Source: Dawidia soli (GTDB lineage: Bacteria > Bacteroidota > Bacteroidia > Cytophagales > Cyclobacteriaceae). Taken from it: 61,811 nucleotides of DNA. The stretch covers positions 1 through 61,811 of the forward strand of contig NZ_JAHESC010000043.1 in NCBI RefSeq assembly GCF_018598185.1, in the 5' to 3' direction. Position numbers and translations under genes: made by a program. Shown one piece after another: positions 371-18,086 of this stretch. The notes beneath the pieces were generated by a model. The model was not told the DNA's origin, searched no databases, and saw only the letters and a list, made by a program, of their open reading frames with translations. Each line of letters opens with the position of its first letter. The stretch's first letter is position 1.

Positions 371-418
371 GTTACACGTACGAAACCGTTGCCAATAATC
401 GTTATTTTTCTATTTCTA

Positions 419-3400
419 ATGGTGGAAAACAAGCCTACCGATCTTTTTCATGGGCACCCTCTCCCTGCGTGGATCTGTGAGCCCCACACCGCCCGCATCA
501 TCGATGTGAACGAGGCGGCCGTGAAAGCTTTTGGCTATTCGCGCCAGCAGTGTGTGGGCGTTTGCCTGCACGACATCCTGCGCGAGCAAGACCGTCCGTA
601 CGAAGTGCATACGGCCCCCGTGATGTATGAAGATAAGAACTGCTGGCTGATGGCCGCCCATCCCGCGGTGCCGGGAGAAGATGGTGCCAGCGGCGCGGCC
701 AGCCGGTTGCGCGAGGTGATGCGTTTTTCGAAAACGGGTATTGCCGAGCTGACCCTCGGCACGGGTGAGCTGACCCTGAGCGCGGAGCTGCTCGAGTTGC
801 TGGAAGAAAGCCCGGAGGCGCCGCTGCGCATGACACTGGCGGCGTTCATCGATAAATATGTAACCGAACAGGATCGTGCCTTGATCTATGATAAGATCAA
901 GGAGGGCATGTACGATGCCGGCCAGCCGGTGAGCCGCGTGCGCGTGGAATTCAAGATGATCACGGCGATGGGTACGGTCAAAGACATCGAGGCGATGGGG
1001 TCTTTCCTGCCCGACGGGGTGGCTATTGGCATGTTTCGCGATGTGACGCGCCGCAAGCAACGCCGCCTCGAACGGCAAACGCTCAACATGATCGCCAGCC
1101 GTACGAGCAACGGCATCCTGATGATCGACGCGCGCGGGCGTATCACCTGGGTCAATCAGGGTTTCGTGCGAATCTCGGGCTATGCGCTGGAAGAAGTAGT
1201 GGGGCGCGTCCCCACATTTCTGAATGGTCCGGAGACCAGCCCCGAGACACTGGCATACATGGAGAACATGATGCGGCAGGGACGCACGTTCCGCACGGAG
1301 CTCATTCATTATACGAAGAGCGGAAACAAATATTGGGTCGATGTGGAAGTGATTCCCCTGGTAGGCGAGGACGAGGAACCGCCGGGTTTTATGGTCGTTC
1401 AGTCGGACATCACCAGCCTGAAGACGGCCGTGCAAGAGATGCTCAGGAGCGAAGAGCTGCTACGCACTATTACCGATCACGCGCCACTCGTTGTCTTTAT
1501 GAAAGACCTGCAGGGTCGCTACACCTTTTATAACAAGCTCTTCAAAGACAAGTTTATCCGGGTGCCGCCGCCGAAGCATGGGTTGTATACCGACCATGAT
1601 CTGTTCGAGCCTTCGCAGGCCGAGGTATTTACATCGTCAGATCAGACGGTGCTGAGCTCGGGCCGGCTGGAAGAATTCGAGCAGGAGGTGGTGACCGACG
1701 GCAGGAGTGAAACGTACCTGGCCATCAAGTTCCCGCTGCGCGACGAGCACGGGCGGGTCTGTGCCCTGGCGGGCGTGGCGCTGTCGATCACCGAGCGAAA
1801 GCGGGACGAAGTGGAGCTTTACCAGAAGCGCCGGGCGCTCAAAAAACAGAACCAGGTGCTGGAGATCATCAACCTGGCGCAGCTGCAATTTATACGCGAT
1901 GTAAAACCCACGATCTTTTTCCACACGGCGCTCAAGAACATCCTGGCGCTGACCGAAAGCGAGCTCGGCTTTATCGGCGAGGTGTTGGAACGCAACGGCG
2001 AGCCCTATGTGCGCACCTTCGCGCTGATCGACACGCGCGACGAAGAGCTTACACCCCAGGACCCCGGGAATATCGGCGCCGGGGTGGAATTCCAGGGTGT
2101 GGGCGCTCCGTTGGAGCGTGTGATCCGGTTGGGCGAGACGGTCGTCACCAACCGGCCTTCCAAAGATCCCCGGCCGGGCTACCCGCCGCTGCGCTCCTTT
2201 ATCGGGATCCCTATATTACGGAGTGGTATCCAGGTAGGGATGATCGGTCTGGCCAACAAGGCGGGCGGATACGGCAATGCGTTCCGTCAGGAATTACAAC
2301 CGCTCGTCATTGTTATCGGCTATATTATAGAGGCCCTGCGCACCGACCAGGAACGAAAGGCGTCGGAAGACATGATCCGCGAAAGCGAAAAAAGACTGCG
2401 CGAGACGGCCGATTCGCTGGCCGAGTCCGAGGCACGGTATCGCTCGATCGTCGATGACCAGCAGGAGATGATCTGCCGGTACACCCCCGACTGGAGGCTG
2501 ACGTTTGTAAACCGGGCGTTCGAGCGCACCTTCAGTCATCATAAACAACTGATCGGTGAGAGCATATTTAATTTCCTGCCCGGGCGCGTGCACCGTGAGC
2601 GACGTGAATTTCTCGAAGGTGTGGTAGCGGGAACCATCAAGCCACGAGCGCTGCAACACGAAACGGTTCTCGGCGACGGCACACACCAATGGCAGGAGTG
2701 GATCGATGTGCCGCTGCGCAATGCGCAGGGAGAAGTGTACGAGATACAGTCTATCGGGCACGATATTACAGGACGGAAAAAGCTGGAGGCGGAGCAGGCG
2801 CGGTTGGACAAGATCGTGCGCGAGAGCTACAACGAAATATATCTTTTTAACATCGATACGCTGTGTTTTGAGTTCGCCAACACGTCGGCGCTGCGGAACG
2901 TGGGCTATTCGCTAGAGGAGCTTACACGTATGAAATTCTCGGATTTGTTCTATTATCCGGATGAATTTGCGTTGCAGGCGCTGTTGGGCCCGCTGCGGCG
3001 TGGGGAGACGGACCGCATCCAGCTGCAGATCAAGCACAGCCGCAAGAACGGTGTGTATTATGATGTGGACACGGTCATTCAATTGCTGGAGGGGCGTTCG
3101 TTTGTAGCGATTGCGACAGACATTACGCAGAAATTGATCACGGAGAAGAAGCTCATCTCCTCGGTGTTGGAGAAGGAAGTTCTGATTAAGGAAATTCACC
3201 ACCGTGTGAAAAATAATCTGCAATTGATCTCCTCGATCATTTACATCAAAATACTCGCTTTGGGGAAATCTGATGTGAGTGATTTCCTCGAAAACACACG
3301 TAAGAAAATCCACTCGATTGCGCTCATACACGAGCGGCTTCTACAGACAAATAATCTTGACAAGGTGGAGATCTCGGACTATCTTGGCAAGATGCTTTAC

Positions 3401-3778
3401 GACCTGCAGGCAGCGCACGACAACCAGAGCATGCAGTTGACCATCAAAGCAGAAATCCCCAAAACCGTGTTTGATCTCGATACAGCTATCTACTGTGGGC
3501 TGATCGTAAATGAACTTGTAACAAATGCTATGAAGCACGCTTTTAAAGATAGGGGCGAGGGCACGATCGTCGTGTCACTTGTAAAGGATGTAAATACATT
3601 TATTCTTCAGGTACGTGATGATGGCATCACGCTTCCGGAAAGTATCGTGCCTGACCATGCCGGTTCCTTTGGCATGCAGCTGCTCCAGATTTTTGCCAAA
3701 CAATTAAACGGCGCGATGGAGATTATTCGCGAAAAAGGCACTATATTCCTAATACGATTCAACCAAAGAGTAGTATAG
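419..3778 (+). CDS. Multi-PAS/GAF sensor histidine kinase (HisKA_2 type)
   Basis: Predicted cytosolic sensor kinase of about 1,119 residues. PAS-like domains lie near residues 8-75, 105-215, 229-333, 347-459, 669-785 and 794-902, several ending in the usual DIT-type motif. A GAF domain covers about 480-642. The kinase core is HisKA_2 (IHHRVKNNLQLISS, His927/928, from about 924) followed by a HATPase_c with an N box (LIVNELVTNAMKHAF). No transmembrane segment is visible, so ligands or redox state are probably sensed inside the cell. The ATG at 419 is preferred over the upstream TTG at 389. The gene ends 5 bp before a REC-containing hybrid whose receiver is the typical partner of this kinase class, so direct phosphotransfer is likely. 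Signal unknown. Confidence 0.9.
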   Translation: MVENKPTDLFHGHPLPAWICEPHTARIIDVNEAAVKAFGYSRQQCVGVCLHDILREQDRPYEVHTAPVMYEDKNCWLMAAHPAVPGEDGASGAASRLREVMRFSKTGIAELTLGTGELTLSAELLELLEESPEAPLRMTLAAFIDKYVTEQDRALIYDKIKEGMYDAGQPVSRVRVEFKMITAMGTVKDIEAMGSFLPDGVAIGMFRDVTRRKQRRLERQTLNMIASRTSNGILMIDARGRITWVNQGFVRISGYALEEVVGRVPTFLNGPETSPETLAYMENMMRQGRTFRTELIHYTKSGNKYWVDVEVIPLVGEDEEPPGFMVVQSDITSLKTAVQEMLRSEELLRTITDHAPLVVFMKDLQGRYTFYNKLFKDKFIRVPPPKHGLYTDHDLFEPSQAEVFTSSDQTVLSSGRLEEFEQEVVTDGRSETYLAIKFPLRDEHGRVCALAGVALSITERKRDEVELYQKRRALKKQNQVLEIINLAQLQFIRDVKPTIFFHTALKNILALTESELGFIGEVLERNGEPYVRTFALIDTRDEELTPQDPGNIGAGVEFQGVGAPLERVIRLGETVVTNRPSKDPRPGYPPLRSFIGIPILRSGIQVGMIGLANKAGGYGNAFRQELQPLVIVIGYIIEALRTDQERKASEDMIRESEKRLRETADSLAESEARYRSIVDDQQEMICRYTPDWRLTFVNRAFERTFSHHKQLIGESIFNFLPGRVHRERREFLEGVVAGTIKPRALQHETVLGDGTHQWQEWIDVPLRNAQGEVYEIQSIGHDITGRKKLEAEQARLDKIVRESYNEIYLFNIDTLCFEFANTSALRNVGYSLEELTRMKFSDLFYYPDEFALQALLGPLRRGETDRIQLQIKHSRKNGVYYDVDTVIQLLEGRSFVAIATDITQKLITEKKLISSVLEKEVLIKEIHHRVKNNLQLISSIIYIKILALGKSDVSDFLENTRKKIHSIALIHERLLQTNNLDKVEISDYLGKMLYDLQAAHDNQSMQLTIKAEIPKTVFDLDTAIYCGLIVNELVTNAMKHAFKDRGEGTIVVSLVKDVNTFILQVRDDGITLPESIVPDHAGSFGMQLLQIFAKQLNGAMEIIREKGTIFLIRFNQRVV

Positions 3779-3783
3779 CCATC

Positions 3784-5220
3784 ATGTTGCCAAAAGAGCG
3801 GATACTGATTGTTGAAGATTCGTTCATCGTTGCCTACCATTTGCAGGCTACGTTGGAAAGCGAAGGGTACATTGTGCTGGGGACACAGGCGTCCGGCGAG
3901 GGAGCGTTACAATTCATGGAGACGCAGCGACCTGACCTGGTGTTGATGGACATTATGTTGAACGGAGACCTGGACGGTATCGAAACCGCGCGCATCATCA
4001 AATCGAAATACAATTTGCCGGTGATCTACATCACGGCACTGACGGACAAAAAAACGATCCAGCGGGCGAAGGTGACGGAGCCGTACGGTTATCTCACCAA
4101 ACCTTTTGAAGACCGCGAGATCTTTACCGTGATCGAGATGGCGTTGTACAAACACAACATCGAGCTGCGGTTGAAGCAGAGTGAGGAGCGTTATTTTTCG
4201 ACGGTGCGGTCCATCAGTGATGCCGTGGTCGTCATCGATCAGCATTACGAGATCAGTTACCTGAATCCCAGCGCCGAGGCGATTTCGGGATGGCCCCTGG
4301 CGGAAGCGCAGGGCAAGTTGTTATACGAAGTATTGAGCCTGCAAAACCAGGAAACCGGCGAGCTGCATGTCAATCCGATCCAGTGTATGCTGGGCAACGG
4401 CCGTGTGAACTCCATGCCGGACAATCTGTTGCTGCGCACCCGGCAGGGAACCGACCGGGCGATCGGTGAAGGCAGCATGAGCCCGGTGATCGACAACAAG
4501 GGGAGGTTTACCGGGCTGGTGATCATCTTCAAAGACATTTCGCAGCGCATCGAGCACGAGCGCCTTCTGAAAGATTTCGAGAAAAGCCGCATGGCGGCGT
4601 TGCTGGAAGGGCAAGAGAAAGAGCGCAGCCGCATCGCCAAAGATATGCACGACGGTCTGGGCCAGATGCTGAACGCGATCAAGATGAAGGTGAAGGCCGA
4701 AGTACGAGGCGACGAGAATGCCGCGGTGCTCTATAAGATGATCGACGAGGCCATTCACGAGTCGGTGCGCATTTCCGAAAACCTGTTGCCGTCGAAACTG
4801 CGCGACTTCGATCTGGCGACGTGCCTGAACTCGCTCTGCAACCAGATCGAAGACCTGTCGGAGATCACGGTGGCGTTCGAGTCGTCGGGCAGCGGGATAG
4901 ACCTGAACCAGGCGCAGAAGATCAATTTATACCGCATTGCGCAGGAGGCGATCAACAATGCGGTGAAACATGCGCGGCCGTCGTTCATCAGCGTGCAGCT
5001 GCACGAAGACGAGGGCAGGATACGCCTGACGATCGAAGACGACGGCCGGGGTATACCGGCTGCGCCGAAGAAGGCGAGCCAGCACGGACTGGTCAACATG
5101 CGCGAGCGTGCAGAAATTATGGGCGGACAACTAACCATCGAATCGGATACGGACCGGGGCACATTAATCATAGCGGAAGCGCCGGCCGTGAATAACGTTT
5201 TAACGCATGCACAGATATAA
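3784..5220 (+). CDS. Hybrid REC-PAS-HisKA_3 sensor kinase
   Basis: An N-terminal receiver (residues 1-125, phosphoacceptor Asp56 in LVLMDIML) is followed by a PAS domain (about 135-255), a HisKA_3 dimerisation domain (EKERSRIAKDMHDGLGQ, His289) and a NarX/DesK-type HATPase_c (about 380-465, DDGRGIP). With the receiver at the N terminus, this protein probably accepts phosphate from the upstream HisKA_2 kinase or is tuned by it, and itself phosphorylates the NarL-type regulator that follows. The next gene starts inside its last 14 bp, which implies translational coupling. Confidence 0.92.
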   Translation: MLPKERILIVEDSFIVAYHLQATLESEGYIVLGTQASGEGALQFMETQRPDLVLMDIMLNGDLDGIETARIIKSKYNLPVIYITALTDKKTIQRAKVTEPYGYLTKPFEDREIFTVIEMALYKHNIELRLKQSEERYFSTVRSISDAVVVIDQHYEISYLNPSAEAISGWPLAEAQGKLLYEVLSLQNQETGELHVNPIQCMLGNGRVNSMPDNLLLRTRQGTDRAIGEGSMSPVIDNKGRFTGLVIIFKDISQRIEHERLLKDFEKSRMAALLEGQEKERSRIAKDMHDGLGQMLNAIKMKVKAEVRGDENAAVLYKMIDEAIHESVRISENLLPSKLRDFDLATCLNSLCNQIEDLSEITVAFESSGSGIDLNQAQKINLYRIAQEAINNAVKHARPSFISVQLHEDEGRIRLTIEDDGRGIPAAPKKASQHGLVNMRERAEIMGGQLTIESDTDRGTLIIAEAPAVNNVLTHAQI

Positions 5221-5854
5221 GATCCTCATTGCCGACGACCACGCGATGGTGCGTGACGGCGTCAAGAACCTGGTAAGACAAAGTAAAGAGTACGTAGTTA
5301 TCGGCGAAGCCTCCAACGGGCGGCAGGCCATCGAACAGTTTGAAACACTGGCGCCCGACCTGCTCATTCTCGACATCTCCATGCCCGAGCTGAACGGCAT
5401 GGAAGTAGCGCGCGAGGTGCTCAACAAGAACCCGCTCGCCAACATCATCATCCTCTCCATGTACGACGACGAAGAATATGTGAGCCGCTGTCTGGAGATC
5501 GGTGTGAAAGGCTATGTGGTAAAAAATGAAAGCGGTTCGGAGCTGGAGTATGCCATCCGGTCGGTGCTGCAGGGTAAAAATTACTTCAGCCGCCAGGCGC
5601 AGGATGTGATCTTCAAAAAATACTCACATGCTGTAACAAAAAAGAAACAGCGCGAAGAGCTGATCCGCCTCACACCCCGCGAGGTCGAGATCATCCGGCT
5701 GATCGCCGAAGGACTGACGAGCCAGCAGATGGCCGATAAGCTTTTTATCAGTCCCCGCACGGTGGAGACACACCGCGCGAACCTCATGAAGAAGGTAGGT
5801 GTTAAAAATGCCATCGAGCTGGTCAAGAAGGTACAGCAGCTGGAGCTGATCTGA
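5207..5854 (+). CDS. NarL/FixJ-family response regulator
   Basis: Residues 1-125 form a receiver with Asp56 (LLILDISMPELNG) and conserved K in the VVKNESG region. Residues 150-212 form a LuxR-type helix-turn-helix (LTPREVEIIRLIAEG, SPRTVETHRANLMKKV). The length of 215 residues is typical. Its start overlaps the hybrid kinase by 14 bp, so that kinase is its likely partner. A short GC-rich hairpin follows the stop. It is the only DNA-binding protein in this sensor cluster and so the best candidate to bind the nearby TACGTA repeats (inference). Confidence 0.93.
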   Translation: MHRYKILIADDHAMVRDGVKNLVRQSKEYVVIGEASNGRQAIEQFETLAPDLLILDISMPELNGMEVAREVLNKNPLANIIILSMYDDEEYVSRCLEIGVKGYVVKNESGSELEYAIRSVLQGKNYFSRQAQDVIFKKYSHAVTKKKQREELIRLTPREVEIIRLIAEGLTSQQMADKLFISPRTVETHRANLMKKVGVKNAIELVKKVQQLELI

Positions 5855-5969: not shown

Positions 5970-6043
5970 TCCAATCTCCAAACTTCTGGGTATTGAATTG
6001 GGTGGATGCTTGTCTGACCTTTGATCAAACGATAGAAGGGGCG

Positions 6044-6874
<831 letters not shown>

Positions 6875-7050: not shown

Positions 7051-7131
7051 ACAGTGTAAACCAAAATACTAAGTTCCGCTGATGGAGCCTGGGGGCCATT
7101 AAAATAACTTTGTAACCAATAAAAGACCCCC

Positions 7132-8391
7132 ATGGCGAAACATATTTTCGGCGCCGAGATCAGTCACGAAAATGCTCCTCTGCACATTCGTGAGAAGCTT
7201 GGCACAGACGATGCGAGCGTGAAACAGTATATCCAACAGCTGAAGAAAGATCTTGATGAAGTGTGTATCCTGTCCACGTCCAGCCGGTTTGTGATCTACG
7301 GTGTAGGCCAGAATATAACGCCGCTGATAAACTTCTTTTTCCGCGATCCCATTCTTTTCCACTACGTACAGTTCTATAAGAATACCGAGGCTGCGGTGGG
7401 CCACTTGTTTGCCACGGCCAGCGGCTTGTGCTCGCAGGTAAAGGGCGACCGGCACATCCTCACGCAAGTGAAGCATGCGCACCAGGTTGGCCTGAACACG
7501 GGCAGCATCGGGTTGTTGCTCGACAGTCTGCTGCGCGAAGCCGTAGAGATCGGGCGCAAGGTGCGCGCGCAGACGGGCATCGACCAGCACTGCGTGTCGC
7601 TGGTAGACCTGGGGTTGGACATGCTGCGCCGCCGGCTGGGCGAGCTGACCGAAAAGAAGGTGCTGGTGATCGGCACCGGTAAGATGGCCCGTCTGGTGCT
7701 GGACCGCCTGTATGCCGACGGCTGCAAGCACGTGACGATCGTGAGCCACGACGCACAACGGGCCGGTGTGCTGGCCGCGCGGATGCACATGCAGGCCGGT
7801 CACATTCGCAACGTAGCGCATTACTTTATGCAAGCCGACATCATCGTGGGCGCCACGGACCGCCCGGTGAGTATATTTCCGACGGCGGCCAAGCCGCAGC
7901 ATCCTTCGCTGCAGAAGCGTTTTGTGCTGGACTTCGGCGCGCCGCCGAATTTCGACCGCGCCATGGCGCAATACGACTCGATCGAATTTTTTGACCGCGA
8001 TAACTTTTACGAGCAGTTGCCCGACGCGGCGCGCTGCCGCAACAGCGTTGACGAAGCCCGCAAGATCGTCCATGCCGAGGCCAGGGAGTTTGTTTCGCTC
8101 TTTGCCCAATTTTATACCACGCCCATCCTGGCGCCCTACTGGGTGCGCCGCCTGAGTACCAAGGACAATAACCTGAAAGGTTTTCTGTCGCGCATCACCA
8201 AACCGAACGCCCGTGACGCGGTGCGCCTGCGCAAGCTGACGTATCGGTTTGTGCACCGCCTGGACGACGAGCAGCTTCGAAACCTGCGGCTGTATACCGT
8301 AACGGGCGACACCCAGGCGCCCAGTCCGGCCGACGTGGTACGCCACGTAAAGAATTTTGAAAATTTAAGATTCTACTTATCTGTCAATTGA
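7132..8391 (+). CDS. Glutamyl-tRNA reductase-like protein lacking the catalytic cysteine
   Basis: The 419-residue protein follows the HemA fold order: N-terminal domain (1-150), NAD(P)-binding Rossmann domain ([14 protein letters not shown], about 177-190) and C-terminal helical dimerisation domain ([12 protein letters not shown]). Recognisable HemA landmarks are [12 protein letters not shown], the ILTQVKHA stretch and PNFDRAM. In active enzymes the catalytic motif is STCNR; here it reads STSSR, with Ser50 at the position of Cys50 of E. coli HemA, and the following Asn is also lost. Standard tRNA-dependent reduction through a cysteine thioester is therefore unlikely. It sits alone among sensor kinases and directly ahead of the chemosensory operon, not beside heme genes. 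It may be a cofactor-binding regulator, or a divergent enzyme; a true HemA would be expected elsewhere in the genome. Confidence 0.85.
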
Positions 8392-8446: not shown

Positions 8447-10645
8447 ATGCCCAGGAACTACTACCAAGAGAAAGGAAACGGCGCGGCGATGGCCGGCACC
8501 GACAACGATGCCGCCGCCACCGAGCACGCTGCGCTCCAGCGTCGTATCACCGAGCTGGAACAGGCTAACCTGGAATTCAAATCCCAGATAGAGGCCATTG
8601 GCCGGTCGCAAGCCATGATCGAGTTTGCGCTGGATGGCACGATCCTCTTTGCGAACGCTAATTTCCTAAACGCCGTAGGGTATACCCTCGACGATATCAA
8701 GGGCAAGCACCACAGCATTTTTGTAGACCCTGATTTTGCGCGGAGCCATGCGTACCGCGACTTCTGGTCGAGGCTGAACCGCGGCGAGTATATTTCCGGT
8801 GAATTCCGTCGTCGCGGCCATTACGACCGCGAGGTATGGCTGCAGGCCTCCTACAATCCGATCTTCGACCGCAACGGTGTGGCGATAAAGATCGTGAAGT
8901 ATGCGTCTGACATCACGCAACAAAAGCTCCAGAGCATCGACACACAAGGCCAGCTCGACGCGGTGAACCGCTCCAACGCCGTCATCGAGTTCGACCTGGA
9001 CGGCACCATCCGCCATGCGAACGAAAACTTTTTGCGTGTAGTGGGCTACACGCTGGCGGAGGTGAAAGGCAAACACCACCGCATGTTCGTAGACGCGGCG
9101 TACGCCGGCAGCCGGGAGTATGCCGACTTTTGGGCGCGCCTGAACCGGGGCGAGTTTTTAGTAGACAACTTCATGCGCCTCTCCAAGTCGGGGCGCCCGG
9201 TATATATTCAGGCGTCGTACAATCCCATCCTGGATGCCGAAGGAAGACCGTACAAGGTGGTGAAGTATGCTACCGACATGACCGAGTTCACGGTGGCGCT
9301 GAAAGCGGTAAGCGACTTTGCCGGCCACCTGCGCAAAGGCGACTTCGAAGCCCGCCTGGACATTCAGGCTACGGGCGACGTAGGCCGCCTCATCGACGAC
9401 AACCTGGCATTGCGCGATACGTTGCGCGAGATCGTCTCGAAGGTGAACGACGTTGTAAAAGCGGCCGGCCGGGACGGGAACCTGCAGGCCCGCCTCACGA
9501 TAAAGGACGCCGCGGGCACGTGGCGCCAGTTGACCGATTCCATCAATACGCTGCTGCAATCTATTGCCGAGCCGATGCTGGAGGTCAACCAGATCATTAT
9601 GCAGATGGCCGACGGCGACCTGACCAACAAGTTTGCCATGGCGGCCAATGGCGATGTGAAGAACATGGGTCAGTCGCTGAACAAGGCCATCGATAACCTG
9701 AACGAGCTGTTGTACAACATCGGCCGCAGCGCCGACGTGGTGGCCAGCTCGTCGATGAACATGCTGCAACGCACGGAAGGCATGAAGCGCAATACCAACG
9801 AAGTGGCTACGGCGATCGCGCAGATGGCTAAAGGTGCGCAAGACCAGGCACAACGCACGGACGAGTCGTCGAAGCTGGTGGACAAGGTGATGGTGACCTC
9901 TTCGGAAATGGAGAAGCGCGCCAACAGCATCAGCAAGGCGGCGGAGAAAGGCCAGAAGAGCAGTGAAAATGGTTTGAAGATCATGAAGACGCTGGTCGCC
10001 AACATGACCGGTATAAGAGAATCGGCCGAGCAGACCTCGAAGTCGATCGATATCCTCACGACGCGTGCAGAAGAGATCGGCCGCACGCTGAACGTGATCA
10101 CGGACATTGCCAGCCAAACGAACCTGCTGGCGTTGAACGCCGCGATCGAAGCAGCACGTGCCGGCGACGCCGGGCGTGGGTTTGCCGTCGTGGCCGAAGA
10201 GATCCGCAAGCTCGCAGAAGGCTCGCGCAAGTCGGCGGTGGAGATTGAAAAGATCATCGGCGACGTGCAGAAGGATACGCAGGCGGCTACCAAGGCGATC
10301 GATATGATGCAAAGCAGCGTGCGCGAGGGCAACAAGGCCACCAACGAGGCAGAAGAAATTTTCCAGGAGATCGCCGACTCGAGCGAGGAGACCTTTACCT
10401 TCTCGAAAGAGATCCAGGAAGCGACCTCCGGTCAGAAGGTGTCTATCGACGTGGTGGTGAAGAACATCGAGCAGATCGTCGTCGTGGCCGAAGAGACCGC
10501 GGCGGGTACCCAGCAGGCGGCGAGCTCGTCGCAGCAGATGAATCTGGCGATGGGCGAGATCACCGAAGGTACGAATAAACTGTCGGGTGTGGCGGCCGAG
10601 CTTCAGACCGGTGTCAACAAGTTCAAGCTTCGCAAAGCCAGCTAA
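8447..10645 (+). CDS. Soluble methyl-accepting chemotaxis protein with two PAS domains
   Basis: Receptor of 732 residues feeding CheA/CheW. Two similar PAS domains (about 40-155 and 165-280) share the pattern GKHH.(I/M)FVD..FW.RLNRGE. and end in QASYNPI and a DIT/DMT motif, an arrangement known from BdlA/Aer-like receptors that bind heme or flavin. A HAMP-like segment lies near 290-410. The signalling coiled coil follows, with the conserved hairpin tip ([19 protein letters not shown]) and [16 protein letters not shown]. There is no transmembrane helix, so the receptor is cytoplasmic and likely senses redox, oxygen or a metabolite. It is the first gene of the che operon. Confidence 0.94.
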
Positions 10646-10676: not shown

Positions 10677-11195
10677 ATGGAAACAGCGACAGGACAACCC
10701 CGGGCAGCGGCCGATGGCAAGCCGGCGGGCTCGTTTCAGATCATCGTCTTTAAGCAGGGCAACGAAGAGTATGCGCTGAGCATCGACCAGATCAAGGAAG
10801 TGGTCATTACACCGACCATTACCCGGATGCCCCAGACGTTGCCCTATATCAAGGGGGTTGCCAACATCCGGGGCAATATCATTGCCATCCTGGACCTGGA
10901 AGAGAAGTTCAATATTAAGCGCTCGGAAGACCAGCACACCGGCAATCATTATACGCTGGTGGTCGAGAGCGAGGATTTTAAAATGGGTGTGCTGGTGCGT
11001 GAGGTGCCGAACACCGTGACGATCGCGGCGACGGATTTCGACGAGGCGACGAACATCATTACCGATGCGACGAGCGAGTCGAACTATATAAAGGGGATCA
11101 TCAAGGTACAGGGCCGCCTCATTATCCTGATCGACATCTTCAAGGTGATCAGCCAGGACGTTACATCGGCCCTTCGGAAAAGCACGGCGGCATGA
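10677..11195 (+). CDS. cheW: CheW coupling protein
   Basis: A single CheW domain of about 150 residues follows a short N-terminal extension. Matching features are FQIIVFKQGNEEYALSID, IKEVV, TRMPQTLPYIKGVANIRGNIIAILDL and the closing KVQGRLIILIDI. It bridges the double-PAS receptor and CheA. It starts 31 bp after the receptor gene, and its last 4 bp overlap the start of cheD, so the two are translated together. Confidence 0.95.
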   Translation: METATGQPRAAADGKPAGSFQIIVFKQGNEEYALSIDQIKEVVITPTITRMPQTLPYIKGVANIRGNIIAILDLEEKFNIKRSEDQHTGNHYTLVVESEDFKMGVLVREVPNTVTIAATDFDEATNIITDATSESNYIKGIIKVQGRLIILIDIFKVISQDVTSALRKSTAA

Positions 11196-11665
11196 AACGA
11201 GTGATACTGAACATCGGTGATGCACACGCGGTAGAAGGCGCCGCGACCTTTACCTGCTTCGGCCTGGGCTCGTGCATCGGTTTATTCTTACAGGACAGGA
11301 CCCTCGACCTTTCGGGCGGCGCGCACATCATGCTGCCCGAAGATACGACGTCGTCGCATGCGTGCGCCGGAAAGTATTATAATGTCAGGGGCGCCATCGA
11401 CCATTTGCTGAAGCAGTTTGCGCGCAAGGGGAGTAGCCTGAAGTCGATCCGGGCCAAGATCACGGGCGGTGCGAACGTCATCCAGTCGATGTACAACGTC
11501 GGCTCGCTGAACGCCGAGTCGACACTACACCACCTGACCCGGCGCGGAGTCTATATTGCCGCGACCGATGTGGGAGGATTTGAAAGCCGCACGGTGAACT
11601 TCAATACCCATACCGGCGGCCTGAACATCACGAACCCCGGCCGCCCGGGGGAGCGAACCATTTAA
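11192..11665 (+). CDS. cheD: CheD receptor glutamine deamidase
   Basis: The 157-residue protein matches CheD. The active-site Cys28 lies in FGLGSCIGL, the histidine in GGAHIMLPE, and the conserved KITGGANV stretch follows. In the Thermotoga enzyme a threonine sits six residues before the cysteine; here that position is Cys22 (Thr21 is one residue off). CheD modifies glutamines of receptors and in many bacteria also binds CheC to boost its phosphatase activity; a CheC-like gene is present in the same operon. Confidence 0.93.
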   Translation: MKRVILNIGDAHAVEGAATFTCFGLGSCIGLFLQDRTLDLSGGAHIMLPEDTTSSHACAGKYYNVRGAIDHLLKQFARKGSSLKSIRAKITGGANVIQSMYNVGSLNAESTLHHLTRRGVYIAATDVGGFESRTVNFNTHTGGLNITNPGRPGERTI

Positions 11666-11707: not shown

Positions 11708-12064
11708 ATGTCAAAAAATGTTTTAATTGTAGACGACTCGTTGTACATGCGTACGCTGATCAAGGATGCGCTGGAAGTAGGCGGGTACAAGGTGATTGGT
11801 CAGGCGGCCAACGGCGAGGAGGCCATCGACCTGGCGTTCGAGCTGCAGCCGGACTTCATCACGCTGGACAACATCCTGCCGGATATGATCGGGATCGACA
11901 TCCTGAAAGTATACCAGGAAGAGGGGTTGAAGTCGAAGGTAGTGATGATCAGCGCCGTCGGCCAGGAGTCTGTGGTGAACGAAGGGTTGCGCCTGGGCGC
12001 GAAGGCCTATATCATCAAGCCGTTCACCTCCGAGCAGTTGATCGAAACGATTTCCAAAGCCTGA
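11708..12064 (+). CDS. cheY: CheY-like single-domain response regulator
   Basis: A stand-alone receiver of 118 residues, starting SKNVLIVDDSLYMR. The phosphoacceptor is Asp54 (FITLDNILPD), the switch threonine/serine region is VVMISAVGQ, and the conserved lysine lies in YIIKPFT. There is no output domain, as expected for the diffusible product of CheA. The target is not visible: no flagellar switch genes occur in the window. cheB follows after 20 bp. Confidence 0.92.
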   Translation: MSKNVLIVDDSLYMRTLIKDALEVGGYKVIGQAANGEEAIDLAFELQPDFITLDNILPDMIGIDILKVYQEEGLKSKVVMISAVGQESVVNEGLRLGAKAYIIKPFTSEQLIETISKA

Positions 12065-12084: not shown

Positions 12085-13122
12085 GTGGCAAACAAGATCA
12101 GGACGTTGCTGATTGACGACTCGCCGTTCATGCGCAAAGTGATCGGCGATATCATTACGGCCGATGGCGAGCTCGAGCTGGTGGGCACCGCCGCGAATGG
12201 CCGCGAAGGCAGCACCCTGGCGACCACGCTGAAGCCCGACGTGGTGGTGACCGATATGGTCATGCCCGAGTACGACGGCGCATACCTGGTACGCGCAGTC
12301 ATGGACCAGCGGCCGGTGCCGATCATTTTACTCAGCTCGCTGGAAAAGAATAACGTCCGCATCTTCGACGCCCTGCAATCGGGTGCTTTTGATTTTATAG
12401 ACAAGCCGGTGGATTTCGATGTCAACAGCATTCGTGACTACCGGCTGCGCGCGTTGATCAAGGAAGCCGCGCGCGCCGACATCAGCGCGCTGAAGTCGAA
12501 GACCATCCGCAAGACCAACCGGGGCGCGCATACCTTCGACAGCACGCTGAACTATTCCATCATTGCCATCGGTGCTTCCACGGGTGGGCCGAGCGCGGTG
12601 GAAAGTATCATTTTTAACCTGCCGGCCAACCTGCAGATACCGGTGGTGATCGGTCAGCATATGCCGGCGCGTTTCCTGGAGTCTTTTGCCGAGCGCCTCA
12701 ACAACCACAACCATTTGCCGGTGACGGTGGCGCGGGCGGGCGATCCGTTGGAAGGCGGCGGGATCTATATCATCAACGGCGATCATAACTCGGGGTTGAC
12801 CCGGCTGCCGTCTGAAAACCGGGTGATATTCTCGACGGTACAACGAAAGTTTGCAGACTTCAACCATCCCTCCATCAACTGTTTGTTTACCGCGGTGGCG
12901 GAAGTATACGGCGCCAAAAGCATCGGCGTCATTCTGACCGGCATGGGTAAAGATGGCGCGGAGGGATTGCTGCGTATAAAATCAAAGGGTGGTTTTACCA
13001 TTGCCCAGGACGAGGGCTCGAGTGTGGTATACGGCATGCCCAAGGCGGCGGTCGAACTTGGCGCCGTGCGACAAACGGTGCCGCTGCACGAGATCCCCGG
13101 CTTTATCGTGAGTTGTTTATAA
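12085..13122 (+). CDS. cheB: CheB protein-glutamate methylesterase
   Basis: A receiver (1-120, Asp57 in VVVTDMVMPEYDG) is joined to a CheB catalytic domain (about 155-340). The catalytic triad is visible as Ser165 (GASTGGPSA), His192 (GQHMP) and Asp290 (TGMGKDGAEG). It removes methyl groups from the receptor when phosphorylated by CheA, countering CheR at the end of the operon. Translation appears to start at a GTG (12085). It ends 14 bp before cheA. Confidence 0.95.
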   Translation: MANKIRTLLIDDSPFMRKVIGDIITADGELELVGTAANGREGSTLATTLKPDVVVTDMVMPEYDGAYLVRAVMDQRPVPIILLSSLEKNNVRIFDALQSGAFDFIDKPVDFDVNSIRDYRLRALIKEAARADISALKSKTIRKTNRGAHTFDSTLNYSIIAIGASTGGPSAVESIIFNLPANLQIPVVIGQHMPARFLESFAERLNNHNHLPVTVARAGDPLEGGGIYIINGDHNSGLTRLPSENRVIFSTVQRKFADFNHPSINCLFTAVAEVYGAKSIGVILTGMGKDGAEGLLRIKSKGGFTIAQDEGSSVVYGMPKAAVELGAVRQTVPLHEIPGFIVSCL

Positions 13123-13136
13123 GCCCCGTATGAACC

Positions 13137-14846
13137 ATGAAAAAAGATCAGGAGTACACCGAGCTCTTCCTGGCGGAGTCGCTGGAAAACTTTGAAGAAA
13201 TAAACCGGTTGCTGACGCAGCTGGAGAAACATCCGTCGGAAAGAAATACACTGCACGCGTTGTTCCGCATCACCCATACGCTGAAGGGCAACGCCGCGGG
13301 TATGGGCTTTACGGCGATTGCCGAGCTGGCGCATGTATTGGAGGACCTCTTCGGCGAGGTGCGCGACGGCAACATCGTCATGGACGGTCCGGTGTTCGAA
13401 CCGGTGTTTAAAGGAGTGGACGTGCTGGGCGCGCTCATCAACGCCGTGCGTGACAATGCCGACGTGAAGTATAAAGGCATCAAAACCAAGCTGGAGGTCA
13501 TCGTCCGGACCAAGGGGATCGTCAAAACGGAAACAGACCACGCGGCGGATGTACCGGTCGTTGGTGACGTGGCGCCGGAGGAGACGGAGGAAACCAGGGT
13601 TGCGTTCTCCGACCTCGTACAGGTACCCGTGCGCAAGCTCGACAACCTGTTGAACCTGGTGGGCGAGCTGATCATTGAAAAAGACCGGATCCTGGCGCAG
13701 GCGGCCAGCAACCTGCGCGGGACGAACGAATATGCGCGGTTGAGCCGCATCAGCTCCGACCTGCAATACTCGGTCATGGACGTGCGTATGGTGCAGGTGG
13801 GTTTCCTGTTTAACAAGTTTCACCGCGTGGTGCGCGACGCAGCGGCGGCAGAGAATAAAGACGTCGTCCTGAACCTGGAAGGCGCGGATACGGAAATTGA
13901 CCGCAACGTGCTGCAGGTGATCAGCGACTCGCTGATACATTTGATCCGCAATGCGATCGGCCACGGTGTGGAGCGTGCCGAAGAGCGCAGGCGCCTGGGC
14001 AAGCCGTCGGCGGGTGTTATTACGCTGCGGGCCCGGGGCGAAACAGACACGGTCGTGATCGAGATCAGCGACGACGGCAAGGGGCTGGACCACGAGAAGA
14101 TCAAACGCAAGGCGTTGTCGAAGGGCCTGATCACGCCGGAAGAAGCGGACCGCATGCCGGCGGAAGCGCTGGCGCTGCTGATCTTCGAGCCGGGTTTCTC
14201 GACGGCCGACCAGGTAACGGCGATCTCGGGCCGGGGCGTGGGCATGGATGTGGTGAAGAAAACACTCGACTCGATCGGTGCGACCATCCGGGTAGACTCG
14301 AAGCCCGCGGCCGGTACAACGGTTCGGCTGTCGCTGCCGTCGTCGATGGCCGTGAAGTCATGTTTGCTCTTTGAGCTGCAGAAGGATGTATATGCCATAC
14401 CGTTGTCGTTCACCGAGGCGGTGATCAGCCTGTATAAGTCGGACATTCACAAGGCGGGCGGCGGCCTGATCGCCAGCCACCTGGGTAAAAGCATGGCGAT
14501 CGTCTTTCTTAAAGACGTGTTTGACCAGGACCGGGAGAAACATCCCGGCACAAATTTGCTGCAGAACACCTTTGACCAGATCCATGCCGAGACGAAGCTC
14601 GAGATCGTCGTGGTTACCTTCAATAACCGCACCGTGGGGCTGGTGGTGGACAAGCTGTTGCAACAGAAGGAGATCGTCGAGAAGCCGCTGACGAAGCCTG
14701 TGGACCGTGTGAAATTTATCGGCGGGGTGACGATCCTGGGCAGTGGCAACGTGTGCCTGGTGCTCAACATTCCGTTCGTTTTGCAGTTTATTTTTGGCCT
14801 CTACGTTCAGGGAAGGTCGACAAAAGGTATAACTTTAAATCAATGA
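13137..14846 (+). CDS. cheA: CheA chemotaxis histidine kinase
   Basis: 569 residues, on the short side for CheA. P1 phosphotransfer domain with His47 (FRITHTLKGNAAGMGF). A linker with little room for a P2 domain follows (about 120-165). The P3 dimerisation domain comes next, then P4 ATPase with N box (HLIRNAIGHGVE, where the usual second Asp is Gly), G1 (DDGKGLD) and G2 (GRGVGMDVV). The C-terminal P5/CheW-like domain starts near 400. It links receptor and CheW to CheY and CheB. Confidence 0.95.
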   Translation: MKKDQEYTELFLAESLENFEEINRLLTQLEKHPSERNTLHALFRITHTLKGNAAGMGFTAIAELAHVLEDLFGEVRDGNIVMDGPVFEPVFKGVDVLGALINAVRDNADVKYKGIKTKLEVIVRTKGIVKTETDHAADVPVVGDVAPEETEETRVAFSDLVQVPVRKLDNLLNLVGELIIEKDRILAQAASNLRGTNEYARLSRISSDLQYSVMDVRMVQVGFLFNKFHRVVRDAAAAENKDVVLNLEGADTEIDRNVLQVISDSLIHLIRNAIGHGVERAEERRRLGKPSAGVITLRARGETDTVVIEISDDGKGLDHEKIKRKALSKGLITPEEADRMPAEALALLIFEPGFSTADQVTAISGRGVGMDVVKKTLDSIGATIRVDSKPAAGTTVRLSLPSSMAVKSCLLFELQKDVYAIPLSFTEAVISLYKSDIHKAGGGLIASHLGKSMAIVFLKDVFDQDREKHPGTNLLQNTFDQIHAETKLEIVVVTFNNRTVGLVVDKLLQQKEIVEKPLTKPVDRVKFIGGVTILGSGNVCLVLNIPFVLQFIFGLYVQGRSTKGITLNQ

Positions 14847-14852
14847 TCGTTT

Positions 14853-15452
14853 ATGAGCGCCAATAAGAGCCGCGAAAACTATATTTTGCAGGTTATGAAC
14901 AAAGGGTTCGAGCGCGCCGCACAGTCGTTCTCGCAGTTCATCGAAGCGCCGGTGACGCTGACGAGCACGCAATTCGTACTGGCGCGTCGCGACGAAGACG
15001 TAACGTTTTTGTCGGAGGAGAAAGGCAATGTATATGTACTGATCACGCAGATCATCGGTGAGTTTGCGGGCAGGAGCTACCTGATCTTTACTCTGGAGGA
15101 GTGCGAAGGCATCTTTCGGGCGGTAAGCAAGAACAAGCCGGGAATGAGCGACTCGCTGAAAGAGCCGCTGCTGCTGGAGATCGACAATATCATTTCCGCT
15201 TCGGTCATTGCCGAGCTGGCCGACTCGCTCATGGCAGAGGTGTACGGCGACGTGCCGTCGCTGCAGATCCTGCCCGCGTCGGCGCTCGAGGATATCGTCG
15301 GCAAAGACGTGGACCACGAACGCCCTTCGAGCGTGATCTTTGCCAAGACTACATTTTGTTTCGACGGGCATCAACAGATAACGCCTCAATTCATCTGGAA
15401 GATCAGCACACAGGTATTTGACATTATACCCGTGGACAGACTGAGTGTCTAG
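14853..15452 (+). CDS. CheC/CheX-family CheY-P phosphatase (probable)
   Basis: The 199-residue protein carries one copy of the CheC active-site signature: Glu-x-x-Asn (LEIDNIISASVIAEL) with a proline exactly 22 residues after the Asn (GDVPSL). The Ser/Asp normally found four residues before the Glu is a proline here. CheC has two such motifs, while CheX has one per subunit, so the exact subfamily is uncertain. Its place right after cheA and the presence of cheD support a role in dephosphorylating CheY. An overlap or gap of only 6 bp follows cheA. Confidence 0.75.
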   Translation: MSANKSRENYILQVMNKGFERAAQSFSQFIEAPVTLTSTQFVLARRDEDVTFLSEEKGNVYVLITQIIGEFAGRSYLIFTLEECEGIFRAVSKNKPGMSDSLKEPLLLEIDNIISASVIAELADSLMAEVYGDVPSLQILPASALEDIVGKDVDHERPSSVIFAKTTFCFDGHQQITPQFIWKISTQVFDIIPVDRLSV

Positions 15453-17267: not shown

Positions 17268-18086
17268 ATGACAGACCCCGTTGATGTTACCGATGAAGAG
17301 GTAAAGTCCATCGCACAAAGTATCCTGATCCGGTACGGTATCGATTTTACCTGCTACGAACCGAAGTCGTTCCGTCGGCGGATCATACGCATGCTGAGCC
17401 TGCACGATCTCACGTCGGTGCACGCGTTGTGGATTAAATTCCTGTCCGATCCTGGGTTTATCTATACTTTCATGAACGGGGTGAGCGTCGGCATGACGTC
17501 GATGTTCCGCGACCCGGTGCTCTGGCGGAGCCTGCGCGGCCAGCTGCAGAACCGGTATGGCCACCGTGATACGATCTCGATCTGGCATGCCGGTTGTTCG
17601 ACCGGGGAAGAGGTATACAGCATGGGCATCCTGCTGCGGGAAGCGGCGCGGACGGCCACGGCGCTGGCGACGGACATCAACCAGGATGCGATCGAGACAG
17701 CCAAGACCGGTACCTATCACAAGATCCGCATGGTAGAGAACGAGAACAACTACCGGGAATATAATCCGTACGGCAACTTCGAGCGTTATTACCGGAAGGC
17801 GGAGAAAGAGATGACGATGGACCCCGAATTGATCAACCACGTGTCGTTCCATTACCACAACCTTATTACAGACCCGATTGCAACGACACACGATATCATT
17901 CTTTGTCGCAACGTGATGATCTACTTTGATCATGCGGCGAAAGCGAAGTTGCTGGCGAAGTTCTATGATTCGCTTAATCCGGGCGGGCTTTTTATTGTTG
18001 GGTTTTATGATGCGCCGGTTCAGATGGTGGATGAGGGTCGGTTTGATCTGATCGATCCGGATGCGAAGATCTTTGTGAAGAAGTAG
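17268..18086 (+). CDS. cheR: CheR receptor methyltransferase
   Basis: 272 residues. A small N-terminal helical domain with basic residues (KSFRRRIIRM) precedes the SAM-dependent methyltransferase domain. SAM motif I is IWHAGCSTGEEVYSMG and the late motif is IILCRNVMIYFD. It methylates receptor glutamates and works against CheB. It is the last gene of the operon and meets the convergent outer-membrane protein gene after only 7 bp, with no clear hairpin between. Confidence 0.95.
   Translation: MTDPVDVTDEEVKSIAQSILIRYGIDFTCYEPKSFRRRIIRMLSLHDLTSVHALWIKFLSDPGFIYTFMNGVSVGMTSMFRDPVLWRSLRGQLQNRYGHRDTISIWHAGCSTGEEVYSMGILLREAARTATALATDINQDAIETAKTGTYHKIRMVENENNYREYNPYGNFERYYRKAEKEMTMDPELINHVSFHYHNLITDPIATTHDIILCRNVMIYFDHAAKAKLLAKFYDSLNPGGLFIVGFYDAPVQMVDEGRFDLIDPDAKIFVKK

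Follow-up and report, generated by a model that had tools for sequence, protein, structure and literature searches.

The window, by which the whole stretch of DNA analyzed here is meant (61,811 nucleotides), comes from a soil bacterium related to Chryseolinea and carries on its forward strand a signaling locus that includes the gene of a putative GluTR-like (HemA-like) pseudoenzyme (positions 7132–8391; 419 aa, ATG start), so classed from the list of open reading frames, its domains, its homologues, and its dN/dS. As the initial annotation had described, sensor kinases precede this gene and a PAS receptor follows it, with che genes coming after. The upstream part consists of a PAS/GAF sensor histidine kinase of the HisKA_2 type (HK1; 389–3778), a receiver-PAS-HisKA_3-HATPase kinase (RR-HK; 3784–5220), a LuxR/NarL-type response regulator (5207–5854), and a HisKA-HATPase histidine kinase (HK3; 5993–6874) directly upstream of the slot occupied by the GluTR-like gene, the three kinases being assigned by Pfam. 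Downstream lie a PAS-PAS-HAMP-MCP chemoreceptor (8447–10645), CheW (10677–11195), CheD (11192–11665; Pfam), a single CheY-like receiver domain (11708–12064), CheB (12085–13122), CheA (13137–14846), which ends in GITLNQ, and CheR (17268–18086). A 199-residue gene between CheA and a GAF/PAS gene (14853–15452) has no Pfam match and is present in those loci with the same kinase/LuxR block that reach it; CheC/X as a label for it is a guess. An antisense open reading frame of 415 aa across the GluTR-like gene (7099–8346) is presumably a byproduct of GC-rich third codon positions.

The fold of HemA, a textbook housekeeping enzyme, is retained, as had been proposed: a Foldseek search with an AF2 model of moderate quality (mean pLDDT 62.5) returned GluTR structures at all of ranks 1–7. 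Pfam detects the N-terminal GlutR_N domain (PF05201; 94.4 bits against a gathering threshold of 27, E 7.5e-27) and the Shikimate_DH Rossmann NADPH domain (PF01488; 71.1 bits against 24.3, E 1.3e-19), which are placed at residues 1–150 (7132–7581) and 151–300 (7582–8031), respectively, and does not find the dimerization domain GlutR_dimer (PF00745) at E ≤ 0.001. Against TIGR01035 the protein scores 197 bits, below the equivalog cutoff of 209.55, and the canonical copy of the same genome scores 326.7. The statement that most HemA landmarks remain proved to be about two-thirds right, in that the protein keeps 15 canonical columns out of 23 and loses eight, with 22 or 23 kept in the five lowest canonical rows; the columns are those in which 39 rows (38 distinct) labeled canonical agree to 95% or more, a label given to proteins over 400 aa that are nearest to the canonical copy. 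Lost, in reference numbering, are C52, N53, E56, K149, G160, N212, R213, and W331, the pair N212/R213 lying in what we take to be the cofactor-phosphate region. The alignment shows Arg52, His91, and the GTGK/GTG loop to be retained, with GTGKMA intact and S-H replacing the canonical N-R after it.

At the catalytic site, STSSR (residues 48–52; 7273–7287; codons TCC ACG TCC AGC CGG) stands in place of the STCNR of canonical HemA, with Ser50 at the position of the nucleophilic Cys, which in the alignment is position 48 of the Methanopyrus kandleri GluTR. The available text of PMC3778395 describes Cys48 as attacking the aminoacyl bond and as highly conserved in GluTR, and that of PMC6399207 assigns the catalytic Cys to the N-terminal domain. 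The substitution, pointed out in the initial annotation, is confirmed by the codons, the alignment, and a second assembly: because a separately assembled relative, Parachryseolinea silvisoli, has a 91% identical homologue with the identical STSSR, and the dN/dS between the two genes is 0.067 (Nei–Gojobori), the gene is neither a sequencing error nor a decaying pseudogene. This value falls within the range of 11 neighboring genes in the same comparison (0.022–0.146), and the gene is under purifying selection after the loss of its catalytic residue. By domain, ω is 0.015 (N), 0.089 (NADPH), and 0.087 (C) in the Cys-less pair as against 0.052, 0.056, and 0.019 in the canonical HemA of the same two species; the order of constraint is thus reversed, the maximum having moved to the N-domain.

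A divergent second copy and its full-length relatives

In the same genome a profile search found one further GlutR_N gene, at G000:C59:50713-51885, which is canonical and carries STCNR; the possibility raised at the outset that the window gene is the only hemA is thereby ruled out. It might nevertheless be argued that the protein is still an enzyme in which Ser50 acts as a slow nucleophile or as part of a hydrolase, for which the 15 retained canonical columns could be cited. The solved M. kandleri GluTR chain 1gpj, however, has a Ser at the same aligned position, which corresponds to the inactive C48S form (about which nothing was found in the open-access literature), and the loss of the dimer-domain signature together with the presence of the canonical copy also speaks against catalysis, so that this reading is very improbable.

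Homologues were collected from overlapping samples of 148 family genomes, seven genomes of the genus, 390 of the family, 390 of the order, and a collection of named genomes. Besides that of P. silvisoli, full-length relatives were found in Pseudochryseolinea flava (43–44% identity, STCNR), Chryseosolibacter histidini (39%, SSCNR), Fulvivirgaceae JP3-4 (39–41%, STCNR), and, more distantly, genome G090 (25%, STCNR), and the homologue of G132, with SSDTR, lacks the NADPH domain. The search of 390 genomes of the order gave no match above 181.0 bits except the window's own, and a copy of the window type is missing from four of the seven genomes sampled within the genus. In a tree from which G132 was left out, the six full-length members form one clade (support 99/92), apart from 42 other HemAs and with two divergent hemA paralogues, of G072 and G542, as sister group. 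Each of the seven genomes that have a clade member, counting G132, carries two GlutR_N genes, as do both sister-group genomes, and in all nine the higher-scoring gene has STCNR; this search matched 16 of 17 genomes, the exception being a genome of 81% completeness.

The Cys is retained by four of the six full-length members. Since the clade groups Cys-bearing with Cys-less proteins, the clade ancestor most likely had it, and its losses in the window pair and in G132 would be separate events. The idea of a che-linked STSSR clade therefore holds as far as the tie of the clade to signaling genes is concerned, but not for the motif. GlutR_dimer is detected in the canonical copy and in all four Cys-bearing full-length members, P. 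flava included, but neither of the two Cys-less full-length members shows it. E56 and the N212–R213 pair of the canonical reference are missing in all six, Cys-bearing ones included, N212 and R213 both being changed in each; the sister protein of G542 retains R213.

The remaining second copies of hemA in the family, which stand beside a hemH-like gene or in ordinary neighborhoods, fall outside the signaling clade. Four genomes of the same genus (G151, G148, G074, and G150; loci L053, L054, L055, and L056) have a different, short second hemA of 337–357 aa with STCNR, which groups in the tree with copies of G012, G101, and G142 and which, at least in L054, adjoins a gene that resembles ferrochelatase at its N-terminus. 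The two sister paralogues, L037:8431-9714 (G072, ATCHR) and L120:8972-10186 (G542, STCNR), lie in neighborhoods without che genes.

Synteny refines the proposed che linkage. The order HK1, RR-HK, LuxR, HK3, GluTR-like gene, MCP, CheW, CheD, receiver, CheB, and CheA onward is common to the window, P. silvisoli, and P. flava. In C. histidini, JP3-4, and G132, HK1, RR-HK, and LuxR (in G132 also HK3) again lie upstream of the GluTR-like gene, but it is followed by sulfite reductase, an SUMT-like methylase, and a precorrin-2 dehydrogenase-like gene, with no che genes on the fetched stretches and CheA matches of 31–38% identity elsewhere in these genomes; in G090 it sits between two che clusters. 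The block of kinases and LuxR regulator neighbors the window gene, the genes of its four closest full-length relatives, and that of G132, and is the most constant partner of the GluTR-like gene, the che genes coming second. Linkage to signaling genes is accordingly conserved, although three relatives do without che genes beside the block.

Further loci were sought through CheA, which matched 82 of 390 family genomes at 1e-100; 20 loci and then 18 more were fetched. In five of these 38 the fetched stretch itself includes a GluTR-like gene, and two more of the genomes have one on another contig. Among 15 block loci in which the interval before the MCP is sequenced, 10 contain a co-directional GluTR-like gene (three full-length and seven short forms, described below), and three further block loci hold one without che genes. 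The slot is empty, with an interval of 65–196 nt, in G696, G515, G527, G136 (which lacks HK3), and G655. All five of these genomes possess RR-HK, and the GluTR-like protein is therefore dispensable to the pathway. Loci L156 and L160, where a GluTR-like gene is absent and the MCP is preceded by an HK3-like kinase alone, were left out of the 15. A ParA/MinD-type ATPase lies directly before the MCP in L147 (8673–9431; Pfam AAA_31), where it separates a short form from the receptor, and, judged by a similar N-terminus, in L159, L162, and L163.

N-domain-only forms and the shared C-terminal tail

In the HK3–MCP slot of seven homologous che loci (G033, G516, G571, G624, G667, and, on separately fetched contigs, G137 and G528), a protein of 170–194 aa is encoded, here called a mini, which consists of the GluTR N-domain and the same C-terminal tail as the window protein and is missing the Cys, the STCNR region, the Rossmann NADPH domain, and the dimer domain. 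What the minis have retained is the part that is most constrained in the Cys-less full-length pair. An eighth mini, in G015 (L200:9651-10193), is an orphan far from che genes and is still tailed. None of the five minis examined matches a Pfam family above gathering, and in the eight mini-bearing genomes the GlutR_N model listed none of these proteins.

Their relationship to GluTR emerges from dedicated profiles. A first profile, built from full-length proteins and N-domains without the NADPH part, recovered four of the first five minis among 1860 open reading frames (E 7e-8 to 3.2e-5), as the best matches after the known ones; the fifth reached only E 0.058, behind a chance match at 0.015. Leave-one-out HMMs found each of the five at E 4e-18 to 1.8e-46 among 3299 open reading frames, two of the five (G033 and G516) being close to each other. 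In the reverse direction, a profile made of minis alone, run on 61 chosen whole genomes, of which 14 matched, recovered six full-length or NADPH-less relatives (3.2e-6 to 7.8e-12) and missed the G090 protein. Among 321 genomes of the order it matched four, one of them through a canonical HemA (G213, 1.9e-6) that scores as well as the window protein. By hhalign, the minis align with the full-length clade at 96.5% probability (E 7.7e-10) and weakly with canonical HemA (16.5%, E 0.0015). In an N-domain tree the minis form one group (100/99), whose attachment to the full-length clade gains no support there; the tail that they have in common with that clade, along with the profile scores, favors their derivation from inside it. 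Synonymous sites are saturated among the minis, as an attempt at dN/dS revealed.

These short forms bear directly on the proposal of the initial annotation that the protein was recruited for signaling as an NADPH- or tRNA-binding protein. Recruitment agrees with a Cys-less second copy that belongs to a signaling-linked clade and is under purifying selection. The binding part fares less well: a sensor that has kept its affinity for NADPH or glutamyl-tRNA as a ligand and informs the kinases of redox or charging state would be in keeping with the retained Rossmann fold with its GTGK, Arg52, and His91, but N212 and R213 are changed throughout the full-length clade and, because minis in the same slot consist of the N-domain and have neither a Rossmann domain nor an STCNR region, binding of either ligand is unlikely as the essential, retained function. 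Such a sensor is improbable as an explanation of the window gene.

The tail of the window protein, FYLSVN (8371–8388), has counterparts such as KFNISLN, FYRFSVN, and FEHTCLN in all six of the proteins formed by five full-length clade members and G132 and in all eight minis; it is absent in G090 and in the sister proteins of G072 and G542, and among 39 canonical rows a single one matches the tail expression. The same pattern closes CheA of this locus class. In many relatives with block-type loci CheA ends in NF[S/T/N]LN, unlike the CheA of other loci, and the window CheA has one extra Gln after the tail (GITLNQ, as against GITLN in P. silvisoli). Counted in its three-residue form, [STCN][LVAIN]N at the C-terminal end, the tail is found in 10 of 11 GluTR-like proteins of che loci (exception G090) and in 14 of 15 CheA proteins of block loci (exception the window's own), as compared with none of 27 CheA proteins of other loci, four of 552 proteins that are neither such GluTR-like proteins nor block-locus CheA (these 27 included), and six of 361 proteins of non-che loci; since the pattern was noticed first and then counted, these counts are descriptive. 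The tail is short, and convergence could account for it. In L156 (G023), a GAF/PAS protein ending in ENLTLN carries the tail instead.

The presence of the tail goes along with that of RR-HK: of 14 genomes that encode a tailed GluTR-like protein, 13, all but G015, have an RR-HK of at least 52% identity, which in G528 is in two pieces. At 1e-60, RR-HK has no match in G015, G090, or G072, and in the tailless sister genome G542 the search gave a single match at 36%. As G084, G512, and G132 keep the tail without this class of CheA, the tail partner more likely resides in the kinase/LuxR block than in CheA itself, insofar as gene content can indicate it.

Globin receptors, tetrapyrrole genes, and the proposed role

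Both Cys-bearing forms in che loci (P. flava and G090) stand directly before an MCP that carries a truncated globin (Bac_globin) at its N-terminus, and all nine Cys-less ones (the window, P. silvisoli, and seven minis) stand before MCPs without globin, a split with an exact chance of 1 in 55 if relatedness is ignored. Globin MCPs occur in only three of 39 loci tested, the third of which, in G596, has no GluTR-like gene beside it. Three loci have tetrapyrrole genes downstream (G084, G512, and G132); in two of them the distance from the GluTR-like gene to the start of sulfite reductase is 608 and 848 nt, and in the remaining one 171 nt.

Such neighbors suggest a local tetrapyrrole supply enzyme that is out of a job: the Cys-bearing forms would be active, feeding heme to the globin chemoreceptor or siroheme to sulfite reductase, and would decay where there is no heme protein, with the window copy as a remnant or in a minor role. 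The Cys–globin pattern agrees with an origin as a local supply of ALA for a heme receptor, and the order of sulfite reductase, SUMT-like methylase, and precorrin-2 dehydrogenase-like gene after the three GluTR-like genes points the same way. It has to be noted, however, that the window copy is not decaying, that the E56 and N212–R213 changes extend to the Cys-bearing members, that G132 has siroheme neighbors yet neither Cys nor NADPH domain, that the globin MCP of G596 does without a GluTR-like neighbor, and that two of the three sulfite reductase gaps are wide (608 and 848 nt). As an account of the window gene this supply scenario is rather unlikely. A part of siroheme synthesis, tried as a separate assignment for the GluTR-like protein, was rejected, as G000 and G127 (P. 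flava) have the siroheme/sulfite reductase operon elsewhere in the genome and only a single genus (G084, G512, and G132) shows the adjacency.

The reading preferred here, judged on balance the probable one from comparative sequence evidence, is that the window gene encodes a GluTR pseudoenzyme that serves the RR-HK/LuxR and chemosensory pathway as an adaptor or regulator. An old hemA paralogue would have been placed in a signaling locus, behind the block of kinase, receiver-kinase, and LuxR regulator and ahead of the chemoreceptor, and the window lineage would then have lost the nucleophilic Cys and a recognizable dimerization domain while keeping a constrained N-domain and the C-terminal tail. 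The protein would make no glutamate-1-semialdehyde and would instead act as a noncatalytic, protein-binding adaptor or regulator, with the N-domain as its regulatory or working surface and the tail as a tether. The tail may dock on a component of the RR-HK/LuxR module that is also used by CheA, and docking may couple the RR-HK/LuxR phosphorelay to the chemosensory kinase or set the two in competition. A wider proposal, offered tentatively and with a good deal more reserve, is that the GluTR N-domain became a dedicated family of signaling adaptors in Cytophagales, with a disarmed HemA of full length at one end and a protein of 170 residues at the other; this family may link the receiver-kinase/LuxR phosphorelay to the chemosensory array through a C-terminal docking peptide shared with CheA, its ancestor perhaps having been an enzyme that supplied heme locally to a globin chemoreceptor.

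The window protein shares with GluTR (HemA; TIGR01035) its fold, domains, and length, together with Arg52, His91, and the GTG loop, and differs from it in the missing nucleophile, the undetected GlutR_dimer, the score below the TIGR01035 cutoff, and the changes at N53, E56, N212, and R213, as well as in being a second copy in a signaling locus. A family search would file it near glutamyl-tRNA reductase and overlook the minis. What is new, as these results suggest, is a signaling-linked pseudoenzyme of the GluTR family and a small-domain branch without a Pfam name; the open-access literature, as far as its text was available, yielded no role of GluTR in chemotaxis or chemosensing or as a pseudoenzyme. 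A single synteny slot holds a graded series, namely, Cys-bearing full length, Cys-less full length, and N-domain only, and the conversion of an enzyme into a signaling protein can therefore be followed and tested. The tail common to CheA and the GluTR-like proteins may point to a docking system, and we know of no source that describes one with such a shared tail.

Among known systems, a short conserved C-terminal peptide is also present in E. coli chemotaxis receptors, where the NWETF pentapeptide is a C-terminal tether; the tail here differs in that it ends in -[S/T/C/N]-x-N and is carried by CheA and the GluTR-like protein, not the MCP, its partner being a candidate only. Plant GluTR bound by GluTR-binding protein or FLU (PDB entries 4n7r, 5che, and 5yjl, by their titles, and the available text of PMC3778395) offers a likeness in that GluTR there is a docking platform for regulators, but the plant enzyme is active and itself regulated, whereas the window protein looks disarmed and sits with kinases and che genes. 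Globin-fused chemoreceptors are represented by the truncated globin-PAS-MCP proteins that follow the GluTR-like gene in P. flava and, immediately downstream, in G090, and the window MCP lacks their N-terminal globin. N-terminal truncated-globin chemoreceptors were located at L072:11274-14225 and L036:6475-9468 (by Pfam), both with several PAS domains after the globin, and at L160:8154-11624 (by similarity only).
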